Assembly: GCA_903893815.1 (NCBI GenBank) | Contig: CAITNS010000010.1 | Location: 1 to 64,000, forward strand | DNA length: 64,000 bases | Direction of reading: 5' to 3' | Source: an uncultured Bacteroidota bacterium | GTDB lineage: Bacteria > Bacteroidota > Bacteroidia > B-17B0 > Aurantibacillaceae | Shown: piece by piece, positions 3,152 through 51,907 of the stretch | Layout of the letters: the number at the start of each line of letters is the position of its first letter | Numbering within the stretch: the first letter of the stretch is position 1 | Made by a program: the position numbers and the translations under genes | Notes under the pieces: model-generated | Database searches by the model: none | What the model was told of the DNA's origin: nothing | What the model saw: only the letters and a program-made list of their open reading frames with translations

Positions 3152-3197
3152 ATTATATATATTTAGTAGTTTTTACTTTCTTGTCACTTGAGCTGTT

Positions 3198-3229
3198 ACA
3201 CTGAGCTTAGTCGAAGTGTTAGTCGAGAA
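3198..3229 (+). repeat. dispersed intergenic repeat (ACTGAGCnnAGTCGAAGT type), copy 1
   Basis: The core CTGAGC-TT-AGTCGAAGTGTTAGTCGAGAA is nearly identical to 14361-14392; shorter copies lie at 27758-27780 (reverse orientation) and 47366-47382. The repeat sits between the divergently transcribed RicT-like gene and the short-chain dehydrogenase. I know this type of sequence as a common short repeat in Bacteroidota intergenic regions; its function is unknown. Confidence 0.8.
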
Positions 3230-14339: not shown

Positions 14340-14360
14340 AATTTGTTAATTCGAGATGTC

Positions 14361-14392
14361 ACACTGAGCGGAGTCGAAGTGTTAGTCGAGAA
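14361..14392 (+). repeat. dispersed intergenic repeat (ACTGAGCnnAGTCGAAGT type), copy 2
   Basis: ACACTGAGCGGAGTCGAAGT followed by GTTAGTCGAGAA. It differs from the copy at 3198-3229 only in the two central bases (GG versus TT). It fills the 58-base gap between the converging kdsC and Nudix genes. Confidence 0.8.
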
Positions 14393-15096: not shown

Positions 15097-18000
15097 ATGT
15101 TGAGAAAACTGCTACTTTTTATTGTTCTTGTTGTAACGGGTTGTTTAAATGCTCAAACAATGCATTGGGTAGGTGGTTCTGGTTATTGGAACGACCCAGT
15201 TCACTGGTCATATATGAGTGGTGGTGCTTCGGCTAATGTCATTCCTTCATCAAATGCTAATGTTATTTTTGATAATGCTTCTTCGGTTTCAAATTTTACA
15301 ATACATGCTTTACATAGCTTTAATTTTAAGTCAATTACTTCTGAAAACACAAATTTTAAGATAGATGTCATTGGCTCTCCAAATGTTGACTTAACAATTA
15401 CAGGAGCAGTTAATTTGAACGAATATTTTTATTTTAAATTAAATGGAAAAATTAATTTAAATCCTCAATCTGCCACAAAGTATCAATTTTCTCACAATAA
15501 ATTTAATAGCGATATATTCTTAAACTCCCAATCAGATGTTGAGTTAGGAGTTTTGCATTCTGAAAAGAAATTAATTATTTCTGGAATTTTTAAATTGAAA
15601 AACTCGTCAATACTTGTTGATGATTTAATATTAACTAATTCTCAAATAGACTTATCGAACAATCTTATTCAGGCTTCCAATGGATTTAGTATTAATAATT
15701 CTCAAATTACAAATCTAAGTACGGTAAAATCAAAAATCATTTGTCAAAAAAATAATCTTTCTTCAGGGACATTACAATCGTTAACAAATATTTCTAATAT
15801 TTCAGTAACTCCACTCTCTCCCCAGGCATGTGCAGTCCCAAATCCAACGGTTACTTTTCCTACATGTCAGGGTGTTTGCAATGGCATAGCATTATTTGAC
15901 CTTTCAGGTTGTTCAAATCCACCCTTTATTATTCAATGGATTAACGGAGCTTGTCCGGCTGCTTTGCCACCGGCAGAGGGAGCATATGTTGGAGCTACAT
16001 ATTCTGTGAATACATTATGCGGTTGCTCTAGTCAATACCTCGTTATTTTTGAGAATACTCTTGGAGAACAAACTGCGGTTCCAGTTCCTATGGTCGATCC
16101 ACCAGCAACTATTTTAAATTTTTCTACTACACAACCAACATGTAATGGTTTGTGTAATGGTCAAATTCGTGCTTCTGTATTAACTGGCGCAGTCCCCTTC
16201 TCTATAAATTGGAATCCTCCTGCTGTAACACATCCCAATGTTATAACAAGGGATACTTTAAAAAATGCTTGTGCTGGTTCATATACTGTTACTGCAACAA
16301 ATGTAAACGGCTGCGTTAATACATTTACTACCACTCTGATCCAACCCACAATCTTATCAGCTAACGGTACAAGTAGCAGTGTCACCTGTAATGCTGCTTG
16401 TAATGGTTCTGCCTTAGCTACACCAATTGGCGGTACTGCACCATATACTTATTCTTGGACATCAGCATCATCTTCACCATCTTCAGCTACCACACAAACC
16501 ATAGGTAACCTTTGTCCAGGTGTTGTTACTATGACGGTGACTGATAGTAAAACATGTACTGCAACTTTTTCTACAACTATCACGCAACCACCTGCTATAA
16601 CATTAACAGTTACAAAAACTGATTTGAATTGTGGTAATATTTGTAATGGTGCAGCCACAGTAACCGCTACAGGAGGTGTAGGAACTTTTACTTATTCATG
16701 GTCGCCAAGTGGTGGTAGCGCGGCTATAGCCACTGGCTTATGTGCGGGAGATTATACTTGCACTGTAACAAATAATGGTAATTGTATTAAAACAATTACT
16801 GTTTCTATTTTATCTCCACCAACATTAACTGCAGCGCCTACTCAAACTAATATTTTATGTAATAGTGTTTGTAATGGAGCAATTAACTTAAATACTTCAG
16901 GAGGAACACCTAATTACTCCTATGTATGGTCGCCAAACATTTCAAATACCATAACTGCTTCTGCTTTATGTGACGGTGTTTATTCCTATACCATTACTGA
17001 TGCATTAGGCTGTAAATTCTCAAATTCTGTTACTATTACTGAGCCGCCAGCTGCAACCTTAACCATTGCTTCAACTAGCATTACTTGTAATTCAGCTTGT
17101 GATGGAACAGCTATTGGAAATATGAGTGGAGGCACACCGCTTTATACATTCAGCTGGACGCCTAGCGGTTTAACTACCCCATCAATTGGAGGTCTTTGTC
17201 CAAATACTTATACATTAAGAGTAACCGACGCCAATGGATGTTTGACAACAAGAACAGTTTCTATTACTCAACCAACTGCTATTTCTTTGGTAACTACTTC
17301 TACCTCTCCAACTTGTAATGGAGTATGTAACGGTTCAATCACTGCTACTCCAGGTGGTGGAACAGGTCCTTATACCTATACATTACAATCATCGGGAGCG
17401 CCTTCAACTAGTGGCCCAAGCGCTAATTCTTCTTTTACAAGTTTATGTGCTGGGTCTTACACGCTAACCGTGAGAGATACAAAAGGCTGCGTGCAAACTC
17501 GAACTATTAATTTAACACAACCAAATCCAATTACCTTAGCTTTACCTTTTACTCCAATTAATTGTTTTAATGCTTGTAATTCAACTATTTCAACAGTTGT
17601 TGGTGGTGGTACTGGGCCTTATACATTTACATGGAGCCCATCTGGGACTGGAAATTCTCAGGTTAATCAATGTGCAGGTGTTCATTCTGCTACTGTAACC
17701 GATTCAAAAGGCTGTCAAGCATCTGCTACTATTACGATTACTTCACTTCCTGATTTAACTGTAAGCATTGTTCCAACAAATCCTAATTGTAATTCTCAAT
17801 GCACAGGTATCGCCACAACAACCGTTACAGGAGGTACACCTAATTATACGATTAATTTTAGTAATGGTGCTTCAGGAAATATCATTAATAATTTATGTCA
17901 AGGAACTTACACAGCTACCGTTATTGATTTTTTTGGCTGTACAAAAACTCAAACCGTTGCTATTACAACTCCACCTGCTTTATCTTTAACCCCAACTAAC

Positions 18001-21000
18001 GGAACAGTAAGTTGTACTGGTTCTTGTGATGGAACCTTATCAGTGGTTGCAACAGGAGGTACTGCAGGTTATTTTTATAGCTGGTCACCCACTGCTCCGG
18101 TTCAAGCTGGTGCAACTGCAAATGGATTATGTGCTGGTAATTACATAGTAAGTGTTACGGATGCATTAGGTTGTATTGCTTCTACGGTAGCTGCAGTTGC
18201 GCAACCAACTGTTTTAACTGCCTCTATAGGAAATGTTCAACCTAGTTGTAATGTGTGTATTGGTTCAGCTACTGCAAATGGCATTGGTGGCACTCCGCCA
18301 TATACTTATGCTTGGGCACCTGGAGGACAAGTAGGCCCAACTCCTAATAATTTATGTGCAGGTGTTCAAACATTAACTGTTACTGACAGCAAAAACTGTA
18401 CAACTACACAAACTGTTCAAATTAATCAAACGGTTATTACTTTAATTACAACTAATGGAGGTACATTATCTTGTAACGGAGCATGTACAGGTCTGGCAAC
18501 AGCTAATCCTGTTGGAGGAGTAGCACCTTATTCTTATACTTGGACACCTTCTCCAGTTGCACCTACACAAACAACGCAAACTGCTAGTGGCTTATGTTTT
18601 GGCACACATACGGTTACAGTTTCTGACGCTCTAGGCTGTTCAAGTTCAAATACAGTTACCTTTATTAATCCTCCGGCTATTACATTAACGGTTAATCAAA
18701 CTAACGTAAATTGCAATGGCGCATGTAATGGTATCGCAAGTGCTAATGCAATTGGAGGGATTGGAGTTATCAGTTATTTATGGCAACCAGGTGGTCAAAC
18801 TACTTCAACAATAAATGGATTATGTGCTGGTGCGTATACAGTAACTGTTACTGATGGAAATAGTTGTTCTCAAACCCAAGTCGTTACCATTATCGAAAAT
18901 AGTTTATTAACAGCAATGTTTACGCCTAACAGTCCTTCAACTTGTACTTCTTCGGATGGCTCTATTACGGCTATTATTGGTGGAGGACTTCCTACTTATA
19001 CGCTTAATTGGTTGCCAATGAACTCATCTGCAAACCCATTAACTAATCTTGGTGCTGGATCCTACACTTTAAATATTATAGATGCAGCAGGTTGTACTCA
19101 AACTATTTCAACAACATTAAGTAATCCTACAGGGCCAACAGTTACTGCCGTTTCAAACTCTATCACTTGCTTTGGTGCATGCACTGGCTCAGCAACGCTT
19201 ACAATTTCAGGAACGGGACCGTTTAATGTGAATGGCAGTTTAATTGTAGGTAATACAACCACACTTTCTGGCTTATGTGCTGGTATTACTGCTCCTATTA
19301 TCACTGATGCAAATAACTGTGTTACTAATCAAACGGTTAACATAGCAGAGCCAACTCAACTTGCAGCAAATGGTGTCGTTACGCATGATCCTTGTAATGC
19401 ATCATGTACTGGGTCTGTTAATTTAACGCCCTCAGGTGGAACATTGCCTTATTCATATGTTTGGTCACCAGCGGGTGTAGGACAAGGTCCTACTAATTTA
19501 TGTGCAGGTAATTATACAGTTAATATTACAGATGGAAATAGTTGTGTGACAACAAACACCTATTTAGTTACTGAACCGCCGGCATTGACATTAAGCTTTA
19601 ATAAAAAAGATGTATTGTGTAACGGGCAGTGTACTGGTGGAGTTAGAGCTGTTCTTGTTGGCGGATCAAGCCCTTATACTTATACTTGGATACCTTCGCC
19701 ACCTTTTGCAGGGTCTAATATCGACACATTAGTTAATATCTGTTCAGGCATTTATACTGTTAGTGCAAGTGATGTAAATGGATGTATAATTACAGGAACT
19801 ATAGATATTGGACAACCAATCGCACTTACATCTACTATTACTTCTATTAATCAAAAATGTTTTGGACAATGTAACGGTTCTGCTACTATTACAGCTGTTG
19901 GTGGCGTTGCTCCTTATTCGTATAATTATAATACAACACCAATTACACCGACACAAACTATCGGTGGTTTATGTATTGGAACTTATACGGGCGGCGTATC
20001 TGATGCAAATGGTTGCGTAAGTTCAAATAGTTTTGTGATTTCACAACCTTTACCTATAGTTGTTACTACAACAATAAGTCATCCAACTTGTAATGCAGTT
20101 TGTAATGGAAGTGTTGCAACCACTGTAACGGGAGGAAATTCAAATTATAACTATAACTGGATTCCGGTTGGCGGACCAGTTTCAAGTCCAACAGGGCTAT
20201 GTGCAGGAAGTTATACGGTTATTGTGACAGATGATAGTTTGTGCACAGGACAAGCCTTGGTAACATTAATGGACCCTGCTATTTTATTAGCAAATACATC
20301 ATTTACTAATCCTAGTTGTAATGCAAGTTGTAACGGAGTAGTTACTGCAAATCCAATTGGAGGAATAGGACCTTTTAATTATTCATGGGCTACTCCGTTT
20401 GTTAATGCTCAAACAGTACCTAATTTATGTGCAGGAATTTATACACTCACTTTAAATGATGCAAACGGTTGTCAAGCAATACAAACTGTAACTTTAACAG
20501 ATCCCCCAGCAATTACTATTAATTCATCATTAGCACCAGCAACATGTAGTGTTTCTAATGGTTCTATTAATGCTACTGCCTCTAACGGAGTAGCGCCTTA
20601 CACTTATAATTGGCTTGATCCTTTAATTATTGTTTCAGGACAAGCTACTAATACTATGGTGACAAATATCCCTGCGGGTACATACACTGTCTTAGTAACT
20701 GATAATGTGGGTTGTTCAACAACCAGTGTTATTGCTTTAAGTAATGCAGATGGACCAACCGGAGCAACAATTACTTCAACTAATGTAACTTGTAATTCAC
20801 AATGTAATGGTGCTGCTGATGTTTCTAATGCTCTTGGCGGAACAGCGCCATACACTTTGAGTTGGATTAACCCGGCTTCTGCCTCTTCATCTGTTTCAGG
20901 TTTATGTGAAGGAACCTATACGGCAGAAATTGCAGATGCTAATAACTGTTTATTCTTTCAATCAGTAGTCATCACAGAGCCACAAACGATTGATGATAAT

Positions 21001-24000
21001 GAAATTATTACTCCTGCCGCTTGTTTAGGAAATTGTAATGGTTCTATTGCTTTAAATCCTTCTGGAGGAAATGCCGGTGCATACACGTATTCATGGTCGC
21101 CAGCATCAGCTACAGGAACAGTTTCAAATCTTTGTCCAGGTGCTTATACAGCTACTATTACTGACGTTCAAGGTTGTAAATTGGTAGCAACTTATATTCT
21201 TCCTAGTTTAACAACAATTACTAGTAGTACTTTTGCAACTAACAATACCTGTTTTGGAAGTTGTAATGGAAGTATATTAGCAACTAATATAGCAGGTGGA
21301 TTACCACCATATTCTTTTTCTTGGTCTGATCCTGCCGGACAATCAACAGTAATAGCTAGCAATTTATGTAATGGAAATTATTCGGTAACGATTACAGATG
21401 CAAACGGATGTTTTAATGTATTACCTTCTGTTATCAGTTCTCCTTCAGCAGTAACATTTACACCAACGGTTACTCAACCAAATTGTGGTTTATGTGATGG
21501 CTCGGCTTTTGTTAATCCGATTGGAGGAACAGCGGGTTATACATTTGTTTGGACTAATGGTCAAGTAATTAATACTGCTTCAAATTTATGTGCAGGTGTT
21601 TATGGTATACAAATAACAGATGCTAACGCTTGTGTCACTAGTTCAAATGTTATTATTAATAGTTCTTCCACTTTTACTGGCGAAACCATTACACAACAAA
21701 ATGTGTCATGTAGCGGTATATGCGATGGCACAGTAACAGTAACTGCTATTGGCGGAACAGCGCCAATTACATATCATTGGGTTCATAATGGATCTACCTC
21801 TCAAACATTAAATGGACTTTGTGCTGGAACCTATCTCTGCAATATGACAGATGCAAATGGTTGTACAAAAACAGCTAGTGTGGTAATTGGATCAACTACT
21901 AATTTTACGATTACTCCACAAATTTCTCAATCCTCATGTTCAGCTAATACAGGGTCTATTAATGTGAATGTAGTTGGCGGTAATGGCGGCCCTTATAATT
22001 ATGTTTGGATACCAGCAGCCGCTAATACTCCATCTTTAACAAATTTAGCTCCTGGTAATTATACATTAACCGTGTCTGATGGAAACTGTTCTCAAACACA
22101 GGTGTATTCTATTAATTCCGTTAACGGTCCAATAGTTACAGCTACGCAAAATGATGTGAGTTGTTCGGGACTTTGCGATGGAAGTATATCATTAGTAATA
22201 AACGGAGGCACGCCAGCTTATACTACTGCTTGGTCAAACGGTGCATCAATACCAAACATAAATGGACTTTGTGTTGGTGCATACTCTTATACAGTAACGG
22301 ATGGTGCGGGATGTAAAGCAGTACAAAGTTTCTCTTTAGCAACTGGAACTCCAATTGTATTTAGTGTACCTGATATTAATAATCCATTATGTAATAATAA
22401 TTGTAATGGAGTTGTGACTGCTATACCAAGTGGAGGAGCTTTGCCTTATACGTATAGTTGGGTTGTATCAACGTCTACTACTTCAATTGCAAATTCTCTT
22501 TGTGCTGGAAATTATTCAGTTATAGTAACAGATGCTAATGGGTGTTCATCTCAAGAAACGTATACGTTAACTGGCCCATCTACAATTAGTGTTACAGCTG
22601 TTGTGACGGACGCAAATTGTAATGGAGCAGCAACTGGTTCTATTAATTTAAGCGTTGTAGGTGGCGTTCCAGGACTGGGCTATACTTACAGTTGGACTCC
22701 AACAAATGCTGTTACTGAGGATATAAGTAATTTAACTAGTGGAACTTACAGTGTTATAATTACAGATGCAAATGGATGTAACGTTGATTCTAGTTTTGTA
22801 GTTGCTGAGCCAACAGCAGTTGTAGATAATTTTACCATTACATCTGCTGCGTGTTTTGGAAATTGTGATGGTACAATCACATTAGCTCCAACTGGCGGAA
22901 CTGGCCCATATTCTTATTCATGGACGCCGTCTGTTTCAAATACATTAACCGCTATAAATTTATGTCCTGGACCACAAACATCTACAATTACAGATGTGCA
23001 AGGCTGTGCCTTTGTATTTAATTATAACTTACCTAGTTTAACTACTATAACAACTTCCACATTGGCAGTTAATAATTTATGTTTTAATGATTGTAATGGA
23101 GTGTTAACTGCAACGACTATTACAGGTGGTGTCGCACCTTATACTATTCAATGGAACGATCCATTAGGACAAATAGGAAATACCGCTAGTGGATTATGCA
23201 ATGGAAGTTATTCGGCAACAATTACAGATGCTAATGGGTGCTTTAACAGAATTCCAGCAGACATAAGTTCAACTTCTCAAGTAACATTTACTCCTGCAAT
23301 TACTCAACCAAGCTGCGATCAATGTGATGGTTCGGCTATTGTAAATCCAATTGGTGGAACAGCGCCTTATAATTTTTTATGGAGTAATAATCAAATAGTA
23401 AATACAGCAACAAATTTATGTTCTGGTGTTTATGCTGTTCAAATTACGGATGGTAATGGTTGTGTAAACACAACGAATGTGGTTATTAATAGTTCAAGTG
23501 GAATTACTGGAGAAGCAGTTATCTCAACTAATGTAGCTTGTGACGCTAGCGCTTGCGATGGTTCAGCTAATGTAACTGCTGTGGGTGGTGTAGCTCCAAT
23601 TTCATATAATTGGGTGCATGATAATTCAACATCACAAACTGTTAATGGTTTATGTGCTGGAACGTATTTCTGTAATATGACAGATGCTAATGGTTGTTCG
23701 AGAACAGCAAGTGTAGTTATTGGAGCTGTAACTACATTAACTATTTCATCTCAAGTAACTCAATCTTCTTGTTCTTCGTCTACTGGGTCAGTTACGGTTA
23801 ATGTAAGTGGCGGTACTGGCGGTCCATATACTTACACTTGGCTTCCAGCAGGAAGTACGCCAACAGTAAGTAATTTAGCTCCTGGAAGCTATACGTTAAC
23901 CGTTAGTGATGGCAATTGTTCTAAAACTCAAATCTTCACTATTCAGTCTATCAATTCCCCAGTAATTACATCCACTAAAAAAGATATTTCTTGCAGCGGT

Positions 24001-25398
24001 GTATGTGATGGAAATATTGCGATAACTATTGTTGGTGGAACACCTGGATACACGACCTTATGGTCTAATGGAGCTTCAACCCCGAGCATAAGCGCATTAT
24101 GTGCGGGAGCTTATTCGGTTGAAGTAACTGATGCAGCAGGATGTAAAGCCGTTCGTAATTTCTCATTAACAACAGTAAGTCCAATAGCATTTAGTGTACC
24201 TGATTTAGATGGCCCTCAATGTCATGATGCGTGTGATGGCACCTTAACTGCCATTCCTATTGGAGGAACTATGCCATATTTATTTACATGGACACCAAAC
24301 AATGTAAACACAGCAACAATTAATAGTTTATGTACAGGCAATTATTCAATTACTGTTTCTGATGCTAATGGTTGTAGTCTATCTAATAATTATTCATTAA
24401 TCAATCCACCTGCATTAACATTAACTGCTACATCTATTGATGCAAGTTGTAATACGGCTTTAGATGGAGCTATGACTACAACTGTTACAGGAGGCATTTC
24501 TCCATTTACATATAGTTGGACTCCTGGTGCAGTTATAACATCAAGTTTAACTAATGTGTTAGCGGGAACATATACTTTAATTGTAACTGATAATTTTGGG
24601 TGTGTAATTGATACTGCTTTAACCATTAATTCAACATTATCGGTAAATGCTTTAGCAGGAAATGATACATTATTCTGTCAAAACGGAACTCTTTTATTAG
24701 ATGGGTCTAACTCAAATAGCACTTTTGGAACTAACACCTACGAATGGTTTGTTGTGCCAGCGGTTGCAGCCTTTTCAAATTCAATTTCAACTACTGTTTC
24801 ACCGTCTGTTGGAACCTCTACTTATGTTCTAGTTGCAACTAATGGCGTTTGTATTGATAGTGATACGATTGTAGTTAATTCAAACCCGCTTCCTAATGTA
24901 GATGCTGGACCAACACTAAGCATTCCATTATTTTCTTCAGCAACAATTGGAGGAAATCCAACTAGCTCAACAGCTACTACATTTAGCTGGTCTCCAGTAA
25001 TAGGATTAGATAATCTATCAGGAACAAATCCAGTATCTGGTACAACGGTTACAACTATTTATACGGTATCAGTTATTGATGTGAACGGTTGCTTTAATTC
25101 TGATACAGTAACAGTTTACGTTTACCCTGAAATTAAAATTCCAAATGGATTCTCTCCAAATGGAGATGGTAAAAATGATGTATGGCAAATTGATTTTATT
25201 GATCAGTTCCCAGATTGTGAAGTGGAAGTGTATAATCGTTGGGGTGAGCAATTGTTCTACTCTAAAGGATATGCCATACCATTTAACGGGCAATACAAAG
25301 GAAAAAATTTACCAGTGGGAACGTATTATTATGTTGTGAAGTTGAATCATCCTAACTACCCAAAACCATATACAAGCCCATTAACCATATTTAGATAA
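15097..25398 (+). CDS. giant SprB-like adhesin, T9SS substrate with CHU_C domain
   Basis: 3433 residues. Order: signal peptide (1-20, GCLNAQ); the WVGGSGYWNDPVHWS motif and a beta-helix-like region rich in Asn/Ser (about 25-245); about 38 tandem SprB-type repeats of 70-80 residues (about 255-3184); two or three Ig-like modules; and a CHU_C domain (about 3345-3433, IPNGFSPNGDGKNDVW, YNRWGEQLFYS). A typical repeat reads x-C-N-x-x-C-N-G, GG(T/I)xPYTYSW, LCAGxYTVTVTDANGC, so it has four conserved cysteines. SprB in Flavobacterium johnsoniae is a mobile surface adhesin driven along the cell by the gliding motor; this protein is about half its length. It is followed after three bases by an SprF-family gene. 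Repeats 22-29 and 30-37 are duplicates of each other as a block. Confidence 0.9.
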   Translation: MLRKLLLFIVLVVTGCLNAQTMHWVGGSGYWNDPVHWSYMSGGASANVIPSSNANVIFDNASSVSNFTIHALHSFNFKSITSENTNFKIDVIGSPNVDLTITGAVNLNEYFYFKLNGKINLNPQSATKYQFSHNKFNSDIFLNSQSDVELGVLHSEKKLIISGIFKLKNSSILVDDLILTNSQIDLSNNLIQASNGFSINNSQITNLSTVKSKIICQKNNLSSGTLQSLTNISNISVTPLSPQACAVPNPTVTFPTCQGVCNGIALFDLSGCSNPPFIIQWINGACPAALPPAEGAYVGATYSVNTLCGCSSQYLVIFENTLGEQTAVPVPMVDPPATILNFSTTQPTCNGLCNGQIRASVLTGAVPFSINWNPPAVTHPNVITRDTLKNACAGSYTVTATNVNGCVNTFTTTLIQPTILSANGTSSSVTCNAACNGSALATPIGGTAPYTYSWTSASSSPSSATTQTIGNLCPGVVTMTVTDSKTCTATFSTTITQPPAITLTVTKTDLNCGNICNGAATVTATGGVGTFTYSWSPSGGSAAIATGLCAGDYTCTVTNNGNCIKTITVSILSPPTLTAAPTQTNILCNSVCNGAINLNTSGGTPNYSYVWSPNISNTITASALCDGVYSYTITDALGCKFSNSVTITEPPAATLTIASTSITCNSACDGTAIGNMSGGTPLYTFSWTPSGLTTPSIGGLCPNTYTLRVTDANGCLTTRTVSITQPTAISLVTTSTSPTCNGVCNGSITATPGGGTGPYTYTLQSSGAPSTSGPSANSSFTSLCAGSYTLTVRDTKGCVQTRTINLTQPNPITLALPFTPINCFNACNSTISTVVGGGTGPYTFTWSPSGTGNSQVNQCAGVHSATVTDSKGCQASATITITSLPDLTVSIVPTNPNCNSQCTGIATTTVTGGTPNYTINFSNGASGNIINNLCQGTYTATVIDFFGCTKTQTVAITTPPALSLTPTNGTVSCTGSCDGTLSVVATGGTAGYFYSWSPTAPVQAGATANGLCAGNYIVSVTDALGCIASTVAAVAQPTVLTASIGNVQPSCNVCIGSATANGIGGTPPYTYAWAPGGQVGPTPNNLCAGVQTLTVTDSKNCTTTQTVQINQTVITLITTNGGTLSCNGACTGLATANPVGGVAPYSYTWTPSPVAPTQTTQTASGLCFGTHTVTVSDALGCSSSNTVTFINPPAITLTVNQTNVNCNGACNGIASANAIGGIGVISYLWQPGGQTTSTINGLCAGAYTVTVTDGNSCSQTQVVTIIENSLLTAMFTPNSPSTCTSSDGSITAIIGGGLPTYTLNWLPMNSSANPLTNLGAGSYTLNIIDAAGCTQTISTTLSNPTGPTVTAVSNSITCFGACTGSATLTISGTGPFNVNGSLIVGNTTTLSGLCAGITAPIITDANNCVTNQTVNIAEPTQLAANGVVTHDPCNASCTGSVNLTPSGGTLPYSYVWSPAGVGQGPTNLCAGNYTVNITDGNSCVTTNTYLVTEPPALTLSFNKKDVLCNGQCTGGVRAVLVGGSSPYTYTWIPSPPFAGSNIDTLVNICSGIYTVSASDVNGCIITGTIDIGQPIALTSTITSINQKCFGQCNGSATITAVGGVAPYSYNYNTTPITPTQTIGGLCIGTYTGGVSDANGCVSSNSFVISQPLPIVVTTTISHPTCNAVCNGSVATTVTGGNSNYNYNWIPVGGPVSSPTGLCAGSYTVIVTDDSLCTGQALVTLMDPAILLANTSFTNPSCNASCNGVVTANPIGGIGPFNYSWATPFVNAQTVPNLCAGIYTLTLNDANGCQAIQTVTLTDPPAITINSSLAPATCSVSNGSINATASNGVAPYTYNWLDPLIIVSGQATNTMVTNIPAGTYTVLVTDNVGCSTTSVIALSNADGPTGATITSTNVTCNSQCNGAADVSNALGGTAPYTLSWINPASASSSVSGLCEGTYTAEIADANNCLFFQSVVITEPQTIDDNEIITPAACLGNCNGSIALNPSGGNAGAYTYSWSPASATGTVSNLCPGAYTATITDVQGCKLVATYILPSLTTITSSTFATNNTCFGSCNGSILATNIAGGLPPYSFSWSDPAGQSTVIASNLCNGNYSVTITDANGCFNVLPSVISSPSAVTFTPTVTQPNCGLCDGSAFVNPIGGTAGYTFVWTNGQVINTASNLCAGVYGIQITDANACVTSSNVIINSSSTFTGETITQQNVSCSGICDGTVTVTAIGGTAPITYHWVHNGSTSQTLNGLCAGTYLCNMTDANGCTKTASVVIGSTTNFTITPQISQSSCSANTGSINVNVVGGNGGPYNYVWIPAAANTPSLTNLAPGNYTLTVSDGNCSQTQVYSINSVNGPIVTATQNDVSCSGLCDGSISLVINGGTPAYTTAWSNGASIPNINGLCVGAYSYTVTDGAGCKAVQSFSLATGTPIVFSVPDINNPLCNNNCNGVVTAIPSGGALPYTYSWVVSTSTTSIANSLCAGNYSVIVTDANGCSSQETYTLTGPSTISVTAVVTDANCNGAATGSINLSVVGGVPGLGYTYSWTPTNAVTEDISNLTSGTYSVIITDANGCNVDSSFVVAEPTAVVDNFTITSAACFGNCDGTITLAPTGGTGPYSYSWTPSVSNTLTAINLCPGPQTSTITDVQGCAFVFNYNLPSLTTITTSTLAVNNLCFNDCNGVLTATTITGGVAPYTIQWNDPLGQIGNTASGLCNGSYSATITDANGCFNRIPADISSTSQVTFTPAITQPSCDQCDGSAIVNPIGGTAPYNFLWSNNQIVNTATNLCSGVYAVQITDGNGCVNTTNVVINSSSGITGEAVISTNVACDASACDGSANVTAVGGVAPISYNWVHDNSTSQTVNGLCAGTYFCNMTDANGCSRTASVVIGAVTTLTISSQVTQSSCSSSTGSVTVNVSGGTGGPYTYTWLPAGSTPTVSNLAPGSYTLTVSDGNCSKTQIFTIQSINSPVITSTKKDISCSGVCDGNIAITIVGGTPGYTTLWSNGASTPSISALCAGAYSVEVTDAAGCKAVRNFSLTTVSPIAFSVPDLDGPQCHDACDGTLTAIPIGGTMPYLFTWTPNNVNTATINSLCTGNYSITVSDANGCSLSNNYSLINPPALTLTATSIDASCNTALDGAMTTTVTGGISPFTYSWTPGAVITSSLTNVLAGTYTLIVTDNFGCVIDTALTINSTLSVNALAGNDTLFCQNGTLLLDGSNSNSTFGTNTYEWFVVPAVAAFSNSISTTVSPSVGTSTYVLVATNGVCIDSDTIVVNSNPLPNVDAGPTLSIPLFSSATIGGNPTSSTATTFSWSPVIGLDNLSGTNPVSGTTVTTIYTVSVIDVNGCFNSDTVTVYVYPEIKIPNGFSPNGDGKNDVWQIDFIDQFPDCEVEVYNRWGEQLFYSKGYAIPFNGQYKGKNLPVGTYYYVVKLNHPNYPKPYTSPLTIFR
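20785..24430 (+). repeat. tandem duplication of an eight-repeat block inside the SprB-like gene
   Basis: Protein repeats 23, 24, 25, 26, 27, 28 and 29 match repeats 31 to 37 one for one (for example ILPSLTTITSSTFATN against NLPSLTTITTSTLAVN, and VNPIGGTAGYTFVWTNGQVI against VNPIGGTAPYNFLWSNNQIV). Repeat 22 and repeat 30 share the segment leading into the block. The period is about 1830 bases (for example 21016 to 22846). Copies have diverged at the DNA level, so the duplication is not recent. Boundaries are approximate. Confidence 0.8.
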
Positions 25399-27032: not shown

Positions 27033-27829
27033 TAAACATACTGTTTAACTTCTGTAGGAATCACAAAAGCCTTATTTTTATTGTAAAAATCTGAAAAGGT
27101 CGTATTCATTTTTTTAACATAGTCTGCATATTTCTTTACAGAGTAACCTTGTTGGTAATAAGGAAATGGTTTGTTTAGTTGAATAAAAAATCGATTTTTA
27201 ATTATCATAAATACTTCTTTTGCAGGAGTGCCTTTTTCTGATGCTTTACTAGCTTGCGCTTCTGACACTAATCCTAATGATGAATCATAAATAGTACCTT
27301 GTTCAGCTACTAAATAAAATGGAGCGTCGCAAACGATACTTGAATTAACAACTAAATTAGAGTCTACAAATATTCCTGAAAGACTTTTATGTTTTACAGA
27401 GTCAGAGCAATCTGAATTAAAAAAATAAACGGGGCAAAATTTAAATTCATTGCTGTAGGCTCTAATGATAGCTTTATTATTAACACGAGTTTCTCTTTCT
27501 ACCTGGGTTGCCAAATCAATACTTCCTGCTGCTTTTAAACGGTTAATGGTATTGGCATTTGTTTTTAAACGCACTAATAAAGCGCCTCCATTTTTTAAGG
27601 AAATGATTTGTGCTTTAGCAACACTTTCGCGGTATTTACTAAATGCAATAAAAGAGGAGTCTCCTTTAAAGTTATTTACTTTAGGAGGTTTGGTGTCATC
27701 TTCTTGTGCAAGAAAGTTGAAAGACAAAAAGAAAATAATAAATGATGTCAATAAAAGACTTCGACTCCGCTCAGTCTGACAATCTTCGTTTTGAGATAAG
27801 TATTTAAAATTATTTAACTTCAGAACCAT
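27029..27829 (-). CDS. exported protein of unknown function
   Basis: 266 residues if started at the ATG at 27829, which overlaps the metG 3' end by 20 bases. The hydrophobic core [18 protein letters not shown] ends in a plausible cleavage site before EDDTKPP. A TTG at 27751 is an alternative start giving a compact signal peptide (MTSFIIFF...). The upstream 26 codons are largely encoded by the dispersed repeat at 27758-27780 (peptide QTERSRS), which favours the TTG or a recently extended N-terminus. The mature protein has several Cys ([20 protein letters not shown]) and no motif I recognise. It is likely co-transcribed with metG. Confidence 0.6.
27758..27780 (-). repeat. dispersed intergenic repeat (ACTGAGCnnAGTCGAAGT type), copy 3
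   Basis: On the minus strand it reads GTCAGACTGAGCGGAGTCGA followed by AGT. It lies just inside or upstream of the exported-protein gene ending at 27029, in frame with it, and encodes the peptide CQTERSRS when the ATG at 27829 is used. Confidence 0.8.
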
Positions 27830-31905: not shown

Positions 31906-32709
31906 ATGATTTGCAAAACCACCGACAACCTAAATATTTACTTTGAGGTACAAGGTAATGAGAGTGCTAAGGAAACCATCGTTTTTTTAAATGGACTCTC
32001 TCAATCTACCATTTCTTGGATTTTAACGACGCCGCATTTTAAAAATGATCATAGAATAGTATTGATTGATTTTATTTTTCAAGGGCAAAGTGATAAAACT
32101 GGCGAATGGCGTAATTTTGATGTGCATGCTCGCGACGTTATTAGTGTATTAGATATTTTAAAGATTGATAAAGCTATTATCGCCGGTTTATCTTACGGAA
32201 GTTTAGTGGCTCAATATCTAGGAGTGCATTACGGCAATCGAATTTCTAAATTAATTTTAATGTCGACTTTTGCTGTTAAAACACCTTATTACGAAGCCAT
32301 TGAATTATCATGGTGGCGTGCTTTAGAAATGGGTGGTTATGGATTAATGTTAGACATTATGTTACCAAATGTTTTAAGTGAAGGTTATTTTAAAAATCCA
32401 TTATTTCCAATTGATTTAATGAAACAAACCCGTCAGGAAGCTAATGACGATAAGCAAGCTTTGTTTAAATTAATGCGCGCAACAAAAGAACGTCCGGACT
32501 ATCGACCTGAATTAAAAAAAATCTCTACACCAACTATTATTATTCAAGGCGAAAAAGATACTTTGTTTCCAGTTCATATGGCGCAGGAAGTAGCTGATTC
32601 AATTCCAAATAGCAAATTGGTAGTTATTCCTTTTGCAGGACATACGCTAAACTTAGAGGCAATTCCTCAAATGGTAAAAGCTATAAAGGAGTTTATTTTA
32701 GCTTCTTAA
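31906..32709 (+). CDS. alpha/beta hydrolase
   Basis: 267 residues of the classic alpha/beta fold: oxyanion-hole region IVFLNGLSQSTISW (about 25-38), nucleophile elbow GLSYGS with Ser96, an acid in IIIQGEKDTLFP and a catalytic His in FAGHTLNLEAIP. The sequence between elbow and acid contains a cap region with ELSWWRALEMGGYG. It could be an esterase, haloperoxidase-like or lipid-related hydrolase; the substrate is not readable. No signal peptide, so cytoplasmic. It is followed by a large palindromic element. Confidence 0.85.
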   Translation: MICKTTDNLNIYFEVQGNESAKETIVFLNGLSQSTISWILTTPHFKNDHRIVLIDFIFQGQSDKTGEWRNFDVHARDVISVLDILKIDKAIIAGLSYGSLVAQYLGVHYGNRISKLILMSTFAVKTPYYEAIELSWWRALEMGGYGLMLDIMLPNVLSEGYFKNPLFPIDLMKQTRQEANDDKQALFKLMRATKERPDYRPELKKISTPTIIIQGEKDTLFPVHMAQEVADSIPNSKLVVIPFAGHTLNLEAIPQMVKAIKEFILAS

Positions 32710-33020
32710 AAAGTAGGTTATTTTAATCTTTTTTATGGCGTGTCCCTCTGGGTCGGGCTGTCGCTTCAATCTTTTGCAGGAGGCAGGCAAAAGGATTTAC
32801 GCTTGCATCCCTCACGCAATATTGGCATTTAAACCTGCGTTAGGGATTGAACGAAAATCCTTTTACGCAACGGAGTGAAGTAAAAGATTGCAGTGAAAGC
32901 CCGGGCCAGAGGCAACGCCCCAACTGAAATAAATCTAAACCAGTATAATATTTCAATTAAATATTATATTACAAATAGCGAAAAAAATTCACTAATTATT
33001 TCTATTTTTGAAACACAAAT
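32710..33020. other. 311-base gene-free stretch holding a palindromic element
   Basis: This gap between the hydrolase and tyrS has no reading frame with coding character. Its central part (32737-32919) is a large, GC-richer, four-armed palindromic element listed separately. The last 100 bases are very AT rich and contain a TATTTTTG box (33003-33010) just upstream of tyrS. Confidence 0.8.
32737..32919. repeat. large palindromic element that can fold as a four-armed cross
   Basis: The outer arms GGCGTGTCCCTCTGGGTCGG (from 32737, continuing GCT) and AGCCCGGGCCAGAGGCAACG (ending CC at 32919) are complementary with a few mismatches. Inside are three further stems: CTTTTGC/GCAAAAG (about 32771-32793), AAAGGATT..GCATCCCT with AGGGATT..AAAATCCTTT (about 32789-32812 with 32842-32864), and CTTTTAC/GTAAAAG (about 32860-32886). 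I recognise similar elements in intergenic regions of other Bacteroidota, but know no assigned function. Confidence 0.7.
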
Positions 33021-34307
33021 ATGAAAACAAATTTTATAGAAGAATTAACATGGCGTGGCATCTTGCATGATGTGATGCCTGGTACAGAAGAATTACTAAA
33101 TAAAGAAGTTGTTACTGGATATATTGGATTTGATCCAACAGCAGATAGTTTACATGTTGGGAGTTTAGCTCAAATCATGACTTTATTACGTTTTCAATTA
33201 GCAGGACATAAGCCCTTAGCTTTGGTTGGCGGTGCCACTGGTATGGTGGGTGATCCAAGCGGAAAATCAGCAGAGCGTAATTTGTTAGATGCAGATACTT
33301 TAAATAAAAATGTGGAGGGAATTAAAAAACAATTAAGTCAGTTTTTAGATTTTAATTGTGGAGCAAATAGTGCGGAGTTAGTAAACAATTACGATTGGTT
33401 TAAAAATTATTCTTTCTTGGATTTCATTCGTGATGCTGGTAAACATATCACAGTAAATTACATGATGGCTAAGGATTCTGTAAAGAACCGCATCAATGGT
33501 GATTCTGGAATGTCCTTTACAGAATTTAGTTACCAGTTAATTCAAGGTTACGATTTTTATTATTTGTGGAAAGAACGCAATTGTAAAATTCAAATGGGCG
33601 GATCTGATCAGTGGGGTAATATTACAACGGGTACTGAGTTTATTCGTCGTAAGGCAAGCGGAGAAGCTTTTGCATTAACCACTCAATTAATTAAAAAATC
33701 AGACGGAACTAAATTCGGAAAATCTGAAGGAGGAAACATTTGGTTAGATAGAGAAAAAACATCGCCCTATAAATTTTACCAGTTTTGGTTAAACGTGAGT
33801 GATGATGATGCGAAAACGTATGTGAGAATTTTTACTTTATTAAGCAAATCAGAAATTGAAGAATTAGAAGCAAAACATGCTTCAGTGCCGCACGAACGTC
33901 ATTTACAAAAAGCTTTAGCTAAAGAAATTACAATTAGAGTTCATAGTGAAGCGGATTATTTGCAAGCGATTGAAACCGCTGAATTTTTATTCAAATCTAA
34001 AGCCGAAGATGTAGCTAATTTAAACCCAGATGCCTTTGAAAAAATGTTAGGTGGTATTGATACGTTTGAAGTAAACAAAACAGATGTTGCTAATGGAATC
34101 AATTTGGTTGATTTGTTAGTAGATAAAGCATCTGTATTTCCTAGTAAAACCGAAGCTCGTAAAATGTTTACAGGTAATGCTGTGAGTATAAGTAAAGCTA
34201 AAGTTACGGATGTAAATGTTACTATTAATTTAGAGGCTTTTAACGGGGGTAAATATTTACTAGTAAGTAAAGGAAAAAAAGAAAATTATTTAATTAAGTT
34301 AGTTTAA
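33021..34307 (+). CDS. tyrS: tyrosyl-tRNA synthetase
   Basis: 428 residues, class I. The HIGH-equivalent lies in [14 protein letters not shown] (about 33-46). The tyrosine-site region has the YDFYYLW and [12 protein letters not shown] motifs. The KMSKS-equivalent is [16 protein letters not shown]-terminal S4-like RNA-binding domain (about 355-428) contains [18 protein letters not shown]. It charges tRNA-Tyr. A TATTTTTG -7-like box ends 10 bases before the ATG, so the leader must be very short. Confidence 0.95.
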
Positions 34308-47365: not shown

Positions 47366-47382
47366 CTGAGCGGAGTCGAAGT
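47366..47382 (+). repeat. dispersed intergenic repeat (ACTGAGCnnAGTCGAAGT type), copy 4
   Basis: Core CTGAGCGGAGTCGAAGT, in the 47-base gap between the converging YjbR-family and SpoIID-like genes and touching the stop codon of the latter. Confidence 0.75.
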
Positions 47383-48623
47383 TATTCATCCTTAAAAAAA
47401 TTCAGCTTATGTAAATCAACCAACTGAGTTTTTTGGTAGTAAAAATTTATCATCTCTGGACATTTATAACCTAATTTTGCCATACGCATAGCACCTTCTT
47501 GGCACATACCAACTCCATGTCCAAAACCACGCCCTTTTAAAATAACAGTATCGCCAACAGCTACTACACTGAAAAAGCTTGATTTTAGTTGCAAATCAGT
47601 TCTTACGTTTTTTAAAGGTACTCTTACATTGTTTGCTTCTAAAAATGGCTTCCTAATATCTTGTTTAAAATTGAGTGCTAACCATCTCGCATTAGAATCT
47701 TGAATAGGATAATTATGTTTTAATTTTAAATACGACAACCAATCTTCTTTGGGCATTTTGCGTTCCCATTTTGCATTAGGCATTTTTGTGCTAAATGTAT
47801 CATTCACACTTCGTAAATACGATAATTTGCTTCCCCATACGTCTTCAGAATTCGCTGTTTGTCCTCCACTATTACTATGAAAAGCGGCATCAATTAAATT
47901 CAAGTTATCATCTACTACAACTTTGCCTTTCGTATCAGTCACTGCTTTCATAATATCTAACTCCGTTGTTTTGCCAAAGTATGCTTGGCAGTGTGTATGA
48001 TCACATAAGTTAAAATCTTCAGGTGCATGTTTTTGTAAATGAGATAAAGCAAATGTTCTTGCTAAAATGGCTTGTACTTTATAAAATTCCTGAAATGATC
48101 TTCTTCCAGATTCAGCCTGAACAACACCGGCAATATAGTTATCTAATGATATTTCGTTTAAACATTTTAAGTCGCCAAATTCTGTTGTTACATACAAATT
48201 ATCTTCATAAAAACGAGGCTTTCGGTCTGGAGAAATTAATTTCATGCGGAAAGATTTTACAAAATCAGGGCTAGAAATTTTCACGCGTTTGTATTTTCCA
48301 ATCACATTTTCAAATGTTTTTACTTCAACCGAATCATTTACATAAGTAAGTTTAATTAGTGGCGATTGTTTAGTTTTTGCAACTTCAACGCCATTGGCCC
48401 AAATACTGTAATTGCCTGCTTCTGCGCTAAATGTAAATGATTGTACTTTTATTTGAGAGAAGATTTTTATGTTTACAGTTTCGTCAACAGCATATTTTTT
48501 TGAAACGTTAACCACTGCATTTTTTGTCACACTTGAATAGGATGATTTTACCGGCATATCCATTACATGCCACGAGGCAAATAAAAACAATACACTTATG
48601 ATGATGATATTATTTTTTAGCAT
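47382..48623 (-). CDS. SpoIID/LytB-domain exported protein
   Basis: 413 residues: an N-terminal signal or anchor (about 5-17), a beta-rich region (about 25-150), then a SpoIID domain (about 150-400) with LDNYIAGVVQAESGRRSFQEFYKVQAILARTFAL, HTHCQAYFG, AAFHSNSGGQTANSEDVWG and GRGFGHGVGMCQEGAMRMA. SpoIID enzymes are lytic transglycosylases; the Glu in QAESG matches the catalytic residue, so peptidoglycan glycan cleavage is plausible in this non-sporulating lineage. The start overlaps the lpxB stop by 14 bases, so it is translationally linked to lpxB. Confidence 0.85.
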   Translation of the reverse strand: MLKNNIIIISVLFLFASWHVMDMPVKSSYSSVTKNAVVNVSKKYAVDETVNIKIFSQIKVQSFTFSAEAGNYSIWANGVEVAKTKQSPLIKLTYVNDSVEVKTFENVIGKYKRVKISSPDFVKSFRMKLISPDRKPRFYEDNLYVTTEFGDLKCLNEISLDNYIAGVVQAESGRRSFQEFYKVQAILARTFALSHLQKHAPEDFNLCDHTHCQAYFGKTTELDIMKAVTDTKGKVVVDDNLNLIDAAFHSNSGGQTANSEDVWGSKLSYLRSVNDTFSTKMPNAKWERKMPKEDWLSYLKLKHNYPIQDSNARWLALNFKQDIRKPFLEANNVRVPLKNVRTDLQLKSSFFSVVAVGDTVILKGRGFGHGVGMCQEGAMRMAKLGYKCPEMINFYYQKTQLVDLHKLNFFKDE

Positions 48624-51839: not shown

Positions 51840-51849
51840 TATATTTACT

Positions 51850-51900
51850 ATATAAAAACAAAAAAGTCCCGATTTAATCAGGACTTTTTTGTTTTTATAT
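51850..51900. terminator. bidirectional terminator, perfect 20-bp stem
   Basis: 51850-51869 pairs perfectly with 51881-51900 around an 11-base loop. The stem core GTCC/GGAC is flanked by A and T tracts on both sides, so it can terminate the RRM gene and the convergent lipoprotein gene. Confidence 0.9.
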
Positions 51901-51907
51901 AAATTCG

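Follow-up and report, generated by a model that had tools for sequence, protein, structure and literature searches.

The window analysed here is a stretch of 64,000 nt, and the feature under study lies in it between an upstream alpha/beta-hydrolase-like ORF (stop at 32709) and a downstream tyrosyl-tRNA-synthetase-like ORF (start at 33021), both named from our reading of the sequence. The covariance model R1, which describes half of the element in 89 positions and 24 pairs, resolves window 32736-32920 into two units of about 82-84 nt in inverted orientation, with their 3' ends facing. Both units are among the 32 training sequences of R1 (its seed alignment holds 32 of 62 units found). The halves also matched the Rfam family Flavo-1 in a permissive scan; the default scan missed them.

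32736..32817, plus strand: unit A (half element), a full-length R1 match (87.5 bits, model 1-89) whose parts are, in order, terminal stem P1, hairpin P2, P3 with a C.T mismatch, a 2-bp step and hairpin P4
32738..32742, plus strand: 5' strand of P1 in unit A (GCGTG), pairing with 32813-32817 (CACGC)
32744..32752, plus strand: hairpin P2 of unit A, CCC..GGG here and highly variable among copies
32755..32760, plus strand: 5' strand of P3 in unit A (GGGCTG), pairing with 32806-32811 (CATCCC)
32758/32808: the conserved C.T mismatch in P3 of unit A
32763..32764, plus strand: isolated 2-bp step of unit A (GC), pairing with 32801-32802
32768..32797, plus strand: hairpin P4 of unit A, AATCTTTTGC...GCAAAAGGATT, with a bulged G at 32793
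32818..32836, no strand: 19-nt spacer between the 3' ends of units A and B, from R1 coordinates
32837..32920, minus strand: unit B (half element), inverted, 3' end towards unit A (R1 79.1 bits, model 1-89)
32747..32822, minus strand: match to Rfam Flavo-1 (RF01705), 41.8 bits (gathering 42), E 8.1e-8
32828..32910, plus strand: match to Rfam Flavo-1 (RF01705), 39.1 bits (gathering 42), E 4.5e-7

A preliminary description had placed and sized this feature correctly and called it GC-rich, non-coding and foldable in either orientation, all of which is borne out: the halves have 57% and 51% GC versus 33% in the surrounding 3.2 kb, the ORF listing holds no ORF of 60 aa or more inside the element, the RNA fold of 32717-32939 reaches -87 kcal/mol (z -6.5; 0 of 200 shuffles equally good), and the DNA fold of the other strand likewise gives z -6.5. 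Its architecture, a single four-armed cross with an outer stem of about 22 bp, did not stand. The minimum-energy fold of the window sequence is a long stem across the halves. At the 329 differing pair positions of 42 inverted pairs, Watson-Crick pairing held in 530 of 658 cells within halves, a figure favoured by the fit of this alignment to the within-half fold, versus 100 of 658 cells across halves. This comparison shows that each half folds by itself, and that the conserved feature is not the 22-bp stem joining the two.

The repeat's basic unit is the half, found solo, in direct arrays (with periods of, e.g., 128 nt) and in inverted pairs. Searching with the 188-base window element gave 30 matches across the 3.69 Mb of its own genome, and 19 of 41 genomes of relatives had at least one. 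With R1, the own genome gave 43 unit matches. Of 20 genomes in the genus, 19 were positive, with as many as 119 units in a congener; in a sample of 296 genomes from the phylum, units turned up in at least 43, the scoring having been confined to 14 candidates from each genome. Similar sequences do occur in other Bacteroidota, as the preliminary description had suggested. A pattern scan of named genomes yielded at least 119 stretches with the unit pattern. The 80 stretches listed all hold a unit by R1 (80/80; 88 matches), and their hosts include Flavobacterium, Polaribacter, Pedobacter, Chryseobacterium, Cyclobacterium, Ferruginibacter and several Spirochaetales or Spirochaetaceae MAGs; isolate names of this kind point to termite guts as the source of these MAGs. 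Two of the spirochaete MAGs listed, G335 and G336, contain at least 150 and at least 139 units, respectively, with 150 candidates scored. The window element had no match at E 0.001 in plasmid and phage records. Six putatively viral IMG/VR contigs (L568-L573) carry a unit.

P1 closes the unit, reading GCGTG/CACGC in the window and GCGTT/AACGC, GCGCC/GGCGC and others elsewhere; P3 has the form GGGCTN/N'ATCCC with a constant C.T mismatch and is followed by the 2-bp step and by P4 with its bulged G. In alignment A2 (143 rows, or 134 once repeats of one place were removed), both-sided changes occur at 21 of 24 pairs: 445 cells changed on both sides versus 128 (sd 9) in shuffles, a level reached by 0 of 500, while slid structures gave 20-54 such cells. 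Alignment A5, whose 88 rows lie outside the R1 training set and come from 80 of 119 fetched stretches, gave 274 cells versus 72 (sd 8) in shuffles, under a selection pattern that fixed parts of P3 and P4 and nothing of P1. P1 changed on both sides at 5 of 5 pairs in A2 and again in A5; its covariation in A1 is partly circular because the 62 units were chosen partly by complementarity of their ends, a circularity from which A5 is free. The two pairs of the 2-bp step changed on both sides in 29 and 42 cells (134 rows), and the last pair of P3 is TA in 62, GC in 46 and AU in 23 of 134. The covariance-model check for compensatory changes proposed in the preliminary description thus finds strongly covarying stems and many other copies, where that account would have fallen had there been neither.

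Several positions are fixed: the P3 mismatch has C in 115 and T in 134 of 134 units, the bulged G of P4 is present in 126 of 134, and the 5' GG of the unit falls with these two features in the range of 115-134 of 134. Of the 84 solo units considered, 62-72 carry T at each of the positions -1 to -3, just ahead of that GG. The halves of inverted pairs are mostly of unlike subtypes, with the same N:N' letters on both halves in 4 of the 41 pairs listed, which include related copies from genome G017.

The window halves lie 0.2 and 2.9 bits below the Flavo-1 gathering score, and each of 20 chosen loci has a Flavo-1 match (27 matches, 15 at or above the cut-off, up to 70.4 bits). The Rfam model, a single stem of 76 positions with P3, the 2-bp step and P4, corresponds to the P3-P4 core on the minus strand of each unit; it includes neither P1 nor hairpin P2, and says nothing of the paired arrangement, copy number or MITE settings. 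Flavo-1 is counted among the most abundant bacterial sRNA families in the available text of one study (PMC9029176), and a 2010 study, in its accessible part, judged it likely to be an RNA, though not a cis-regulatory one (PMC2864571). In the F. psychrophilum transcriptome, as far as the available text goes, Flavo-1 hits lie sense or antisense alike and many fall outside transcribed regions, several 5' transcribed regions coincide with hits, and the authors, noting hits in both senses, report no clue to function (PMC9723704). In the openly accessible journal papers searched, we found none treating Flavo-1 as a mobile DNA repeat.

The covariation is nearly all from Watson-Crick to Watson-Crick. 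The 3170 pair cells of A2 comprise 2970 Watson-Crick, 38 G.T (1.2%) and 55 A.C, and the 2063 cells of A5 comprise 1982 Watson-Crick, 13 G.T (0.6%) and 21 A.C, such that G.T does not exceed A.C in either alignment. RNA stems evolve via G.U, and A.C is the wobble of the opposite strand. In 18 tRNAs from the same DNA, G.U made up 29 of 373 pairs (7.8%), a control limited to pairs drawn by ARAGORN, in which A.C cannot appear. Since G.T and A.C are both scarce, neither strand carries wobble, which is what a fold of importance at the DNA level would predict; the pair changes typical of RNA, G.U among them, that an RNA reading of Flavo-1 entails were not seen. The fixed C.T mismatch, bulged G and 5' GG with its preceding T's argue against mere palindrome correction.

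Units showed no strand preference relative to neighbouring co-directional genes (34 versus 40). They lie between convergent gene pairs in 30 cases versus divergent pairs in 17, a mild excess, and their median distance is shorter to gene 3' ends (73 nt) than to gene 5' ends (110 nt); 8 of 134 fall within an ORF call, mostly short ORFs. The arrangements counted were 71 solo, 25 inverted and 10 direct junctions. In all 25 inverted pairs the 3' ends face each other, across spacers of 19 nt (four pairs), 26 nt (one), 42-61 nt (eighteen), and 175 and 220 nt (one each). On the G237 chromosome (L528-L547), 16 units form two opposite-strand blocks on the circle, 9 on the minus strand from 0.92 to 2.21 Mb and 7 on the plus strand elsewhere, for which our own arithmetic, applied after the fact, gives a chance of about 0.0014. 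The strand switches do not coincide with the GC-skew changes (about 1.5 and 3.4 Mb); in G209, orientation is mixed, and in neither of these two chromosomes does it follow GC skew.

Twenty-two sites of the own genome were anchored in four congeners. A manual tally, in which each place was counted once, covers 41 site-by-genome comparisons with both flanks present; R1 found no unit in 16, and in 12 of these the gap was 72 nt or less. Some orthologous sites alternate between pair and solo. The comparison of empty and filled sites advocated earlier was productive to this extent; it gave no exact insertion boundaries, the intergenic regions being too diverged. At the window's own site in congener G019, the pair is reversed relative to the window, with flanks that are 90-93% identical; at two other G019 sites whose halves could be resolved (L005 and L025), orientation is kept. 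Instead of inverting in place, the pair may have been replaced by a different copy facing the other way, as units belonging to one subtype resemble each other from site to site.

Three families with terminal inverted repeats (TIRs) hold the unit inside MITEs, one in G017 and two (S1 and S2) in the spirochaete G335, and all three combine TIRs with target-site duplications. In G017, the sequence shared by a young subfamily runs on past the units and terminates in inverted ends (GGGATTGTTGTAGAATAATGTAGGTT or close to it). This end pattern has 37 matches in G017, against 0-1 in three other genomes and 0-1 for controls with the reversed pattern, and direct repeats of at least 7 nt stand outside the ends in 9 of 17 elements versus 1.5 expected; some G017 elements retain merely a remnant hairpin of the unit. 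S1 is a 153-154-bp element with ends GGGTGCACCAATTTTTTCCGTGC (142 end matches, control 0) and perfect 9-bp target repeats in 6 of 9 elements, plus an 8-bp repeat in one, versus 0 expected. S2 has GAGCCTGTT ends, and 6 of 6 elements carry 3-bp target repeats (TNA); from these ends it is presumed to be an IS5-type MITE, and no transposase was found for it. A search for an autonomous partner with G017 or S1 ends found none.

The window element and its solo or paired relatives do not share these properties. Whereas the G017 and G335 elements have, like other bacterial MITEs, TIRs and target-site duplications around the unit, the window pair and most other copies are without such ends, and no target-site duplications were found outside G017 and the spirochaete. 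With 45-nt flanks, direct repeats of at least 8 nt occurred in 1 of 28 inverted pairs (2.6 expected) and in 16 of 90 solos (9.3 expected), the latter partly tandem arrays. In G193, the solo unit alone is a dispersed repeat, nine copies sharing sequence between about TTTGGGCG and CACGCAA but not outside these limits; outside G017, likeness between copies commonly stops 0-4 nt beyond the unit. As separate observations, L253, L265 and other G017 copies carry the palindrome TCCGCCAGCTGGCGGA both as P2 and where part of P4 would normally be, as though hairpin modules could swap positions, and L511 694-1104 is a 411-bp S1 element with more hairpins nested in the unit and a 9-bp repeat at its flanks.

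No mobilising enzyme was found among Y1_Tnp loci, ORFs between units or autonomous MITE partners. A full unit lay within about 1.2-1.5 kb of 1 of 32 and 0 of 40 Y1_Tnp loci, with one partial unit match (25.7 bits) at the L428 locus. Five congeners with 22-67 units (G006, G009, G015, G016 and G019) had no Y1_Tnp match, nor had 7 of the 43 unit-positive genomes of the phylum sample, and the matches in the two spirochaete MAGs were partial only. ORFs between distant units in L017, L131, L064 and L272 were considered as transposase candidates and rejected on reading. At L086 1100-2160, a Y1 transposase gene is flanked, by reading, by other short palindromes (CAACCCCTGAGGGGTTGA-like).

The unit is a covarying, dispersed, strand-neutral DNA repeat with a Flavo-1 core that forms REPIN-like pairs and at times sits in MITEs. 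In our best reading, Flavo-1 is a REP/REPIN-like mobile hairpin acting at the DNA level and not primarily an RNA gene. We assign a probability of roughly 60% to the window element being a REPIN-like inverted pair of the Flavo-1 repeat (about 80-130 nt), itself a non-autonomous mobile DNA hairpin. Non-autonomous mobility, one of the possibilities raised in the preliminary description, is supported by copies that are multiple, intergenic, absent at orthologous sites and, in two other hosts, lodged in MITEs with target-site duplications. Like REPs and REPINs, as defined in the accessible text of two papers (PMC6006769, PMC3733652), the unit is a short, imperfect DNA palindrome that has a 5' foot, occurs in many intergenic copies and forms inverted pairs whose feet point outward. 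It differs in being longer, in having two hairpins, in its foot (TTTGG in place of the tetranucleotide GT[AG]G at the base of the REP hairpin) and in lacking an adjoining cognate tnpA-REP gene flanked by the repeat. A protein that recognises the bulges, the mismatches and the 5' TTTGG foot may read the fold in single-stranded or cruciform DNA; copies would then spread in trans, either singly or paired, and units may also hitchhike within transposase-driven MITEs. The unlike subtypes of paired halves would prevent a long perfect palindrome. A more far-reaching version, which we consider less likely than not, is that Flavo-1 represents a new class of single-stranded DNA hairpin, moved by something other than a Y1 TnpA-REP enzyme, that spreads alone, as outward-footed unlike pairs and into unrelated MITEs, and might thereby have crossed between Bacteroidota and spirochaetes.

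Among the alternatives, the strongest is still unlikely: all copies could be decayed MITEs of DDE transposases, with the unit as their conserved middle and the window copy having lost its ends. The TIR elements with target repeats in G017 and G335 are as this would predict, yet the three families have a common unit despite unlike ends and target-repeat lengths, the nine G193 solo copies are alike across the unit and not past it, and the same limit of 0-4 nt applies widely outside G017. Somewhat less probable again is a purely mutational origin of the covariation, in which template switching in quasi-palindromes would generate the paired changes and the units would be neutral DNA, bidirectional terminators or stabilisers of mRNA 3' ends. 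Changes from Watson-Crick to Watson-Crick, the shorter distance to gene 3' ends and the excess of convergent neighbours are compatible with such an origin; however, blind correction would erase the C.T mismatch, bulged G and 5' GG, which are fixed, and the copies prefer neither strand.

We consider it improbable that Flavo-1 is a small RNA or a structured element in transcripts, its copies being RNA genes or parts of UTRs. The structured RNA offered as an option in the preliminary description agrees with the filing of this sequence as Flavo-1: both halves score near the cut-off, 15 of 27 matches in the 20 loci exceed it, the 2010 rating favours RNA (PMC2864571, available part), and several F. 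psychrophilum 5' transcribed regions coincide with hits (PMC9723704, available part). Nevertheless, G.T is rarer than A.C and far rarer than G.U in tRNAs, the copies lack a gene-strand preference, transcriptome hits are sense or antisense alike in that same text, and some genomes hold more than 100 copies that vary in presence at orthologous sites. Equally doubtful is movement by TnpA-REP (RAYT, a Y1 HUH transposase), as proposed for E. coli REPs and suggested for this element at the outset. The layout is REP-like (5' foot, imperfect bulged hairpin, inverted pairs with feet outward), one Flavo-1-like unit lies about 190 bp from the L086 Y1 gene, and TnpA-REP subclass 2.6 of Bacteroidetes is described, in the available text, as flanked by atypical structures with copies elsewhere (PMC6006769). 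Against this, full units are nearly absent from Y1 loci, unit-rich congeners and other positive genomes lack Y1_Tnp, and the L086 gene is flanked by palindromes of another kind.

If Flavo-1 is a DNA-level mobile sequence, an abundant "sRNA" family needs re-filing, and the lack of a clear RNA role would be explained. The wobble test would then be a cheap way to separate DNA palindromes from RNAs in orphan families, and the unit-rich spirochaete MAGs would be a good place to seek the enzyme.

The window contains several other features. A DUF805 RNA (RF03081) matches 1077-1146 on the minus strand with 72.4 bits, above its cut-off. A short dispersed repeat around CACTGAGCGGAGTCGAAGTG occurs in both orientations at 3190-3229, 14353-14392, 27751-27781 and 47366-47389, and units in L009 and L023 have a similar stretch in their P4 loop. 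Window 16134-24380 looks like a large repetitive surface protein gene: it is filled with imperfect repeats at intervals of about 225-240 nt, among them 25 copies of a 61-nt core. Finally, 51849-51901 is a 26-bp inverted repeat, 96% complementary, with its arms 1 nt apart.
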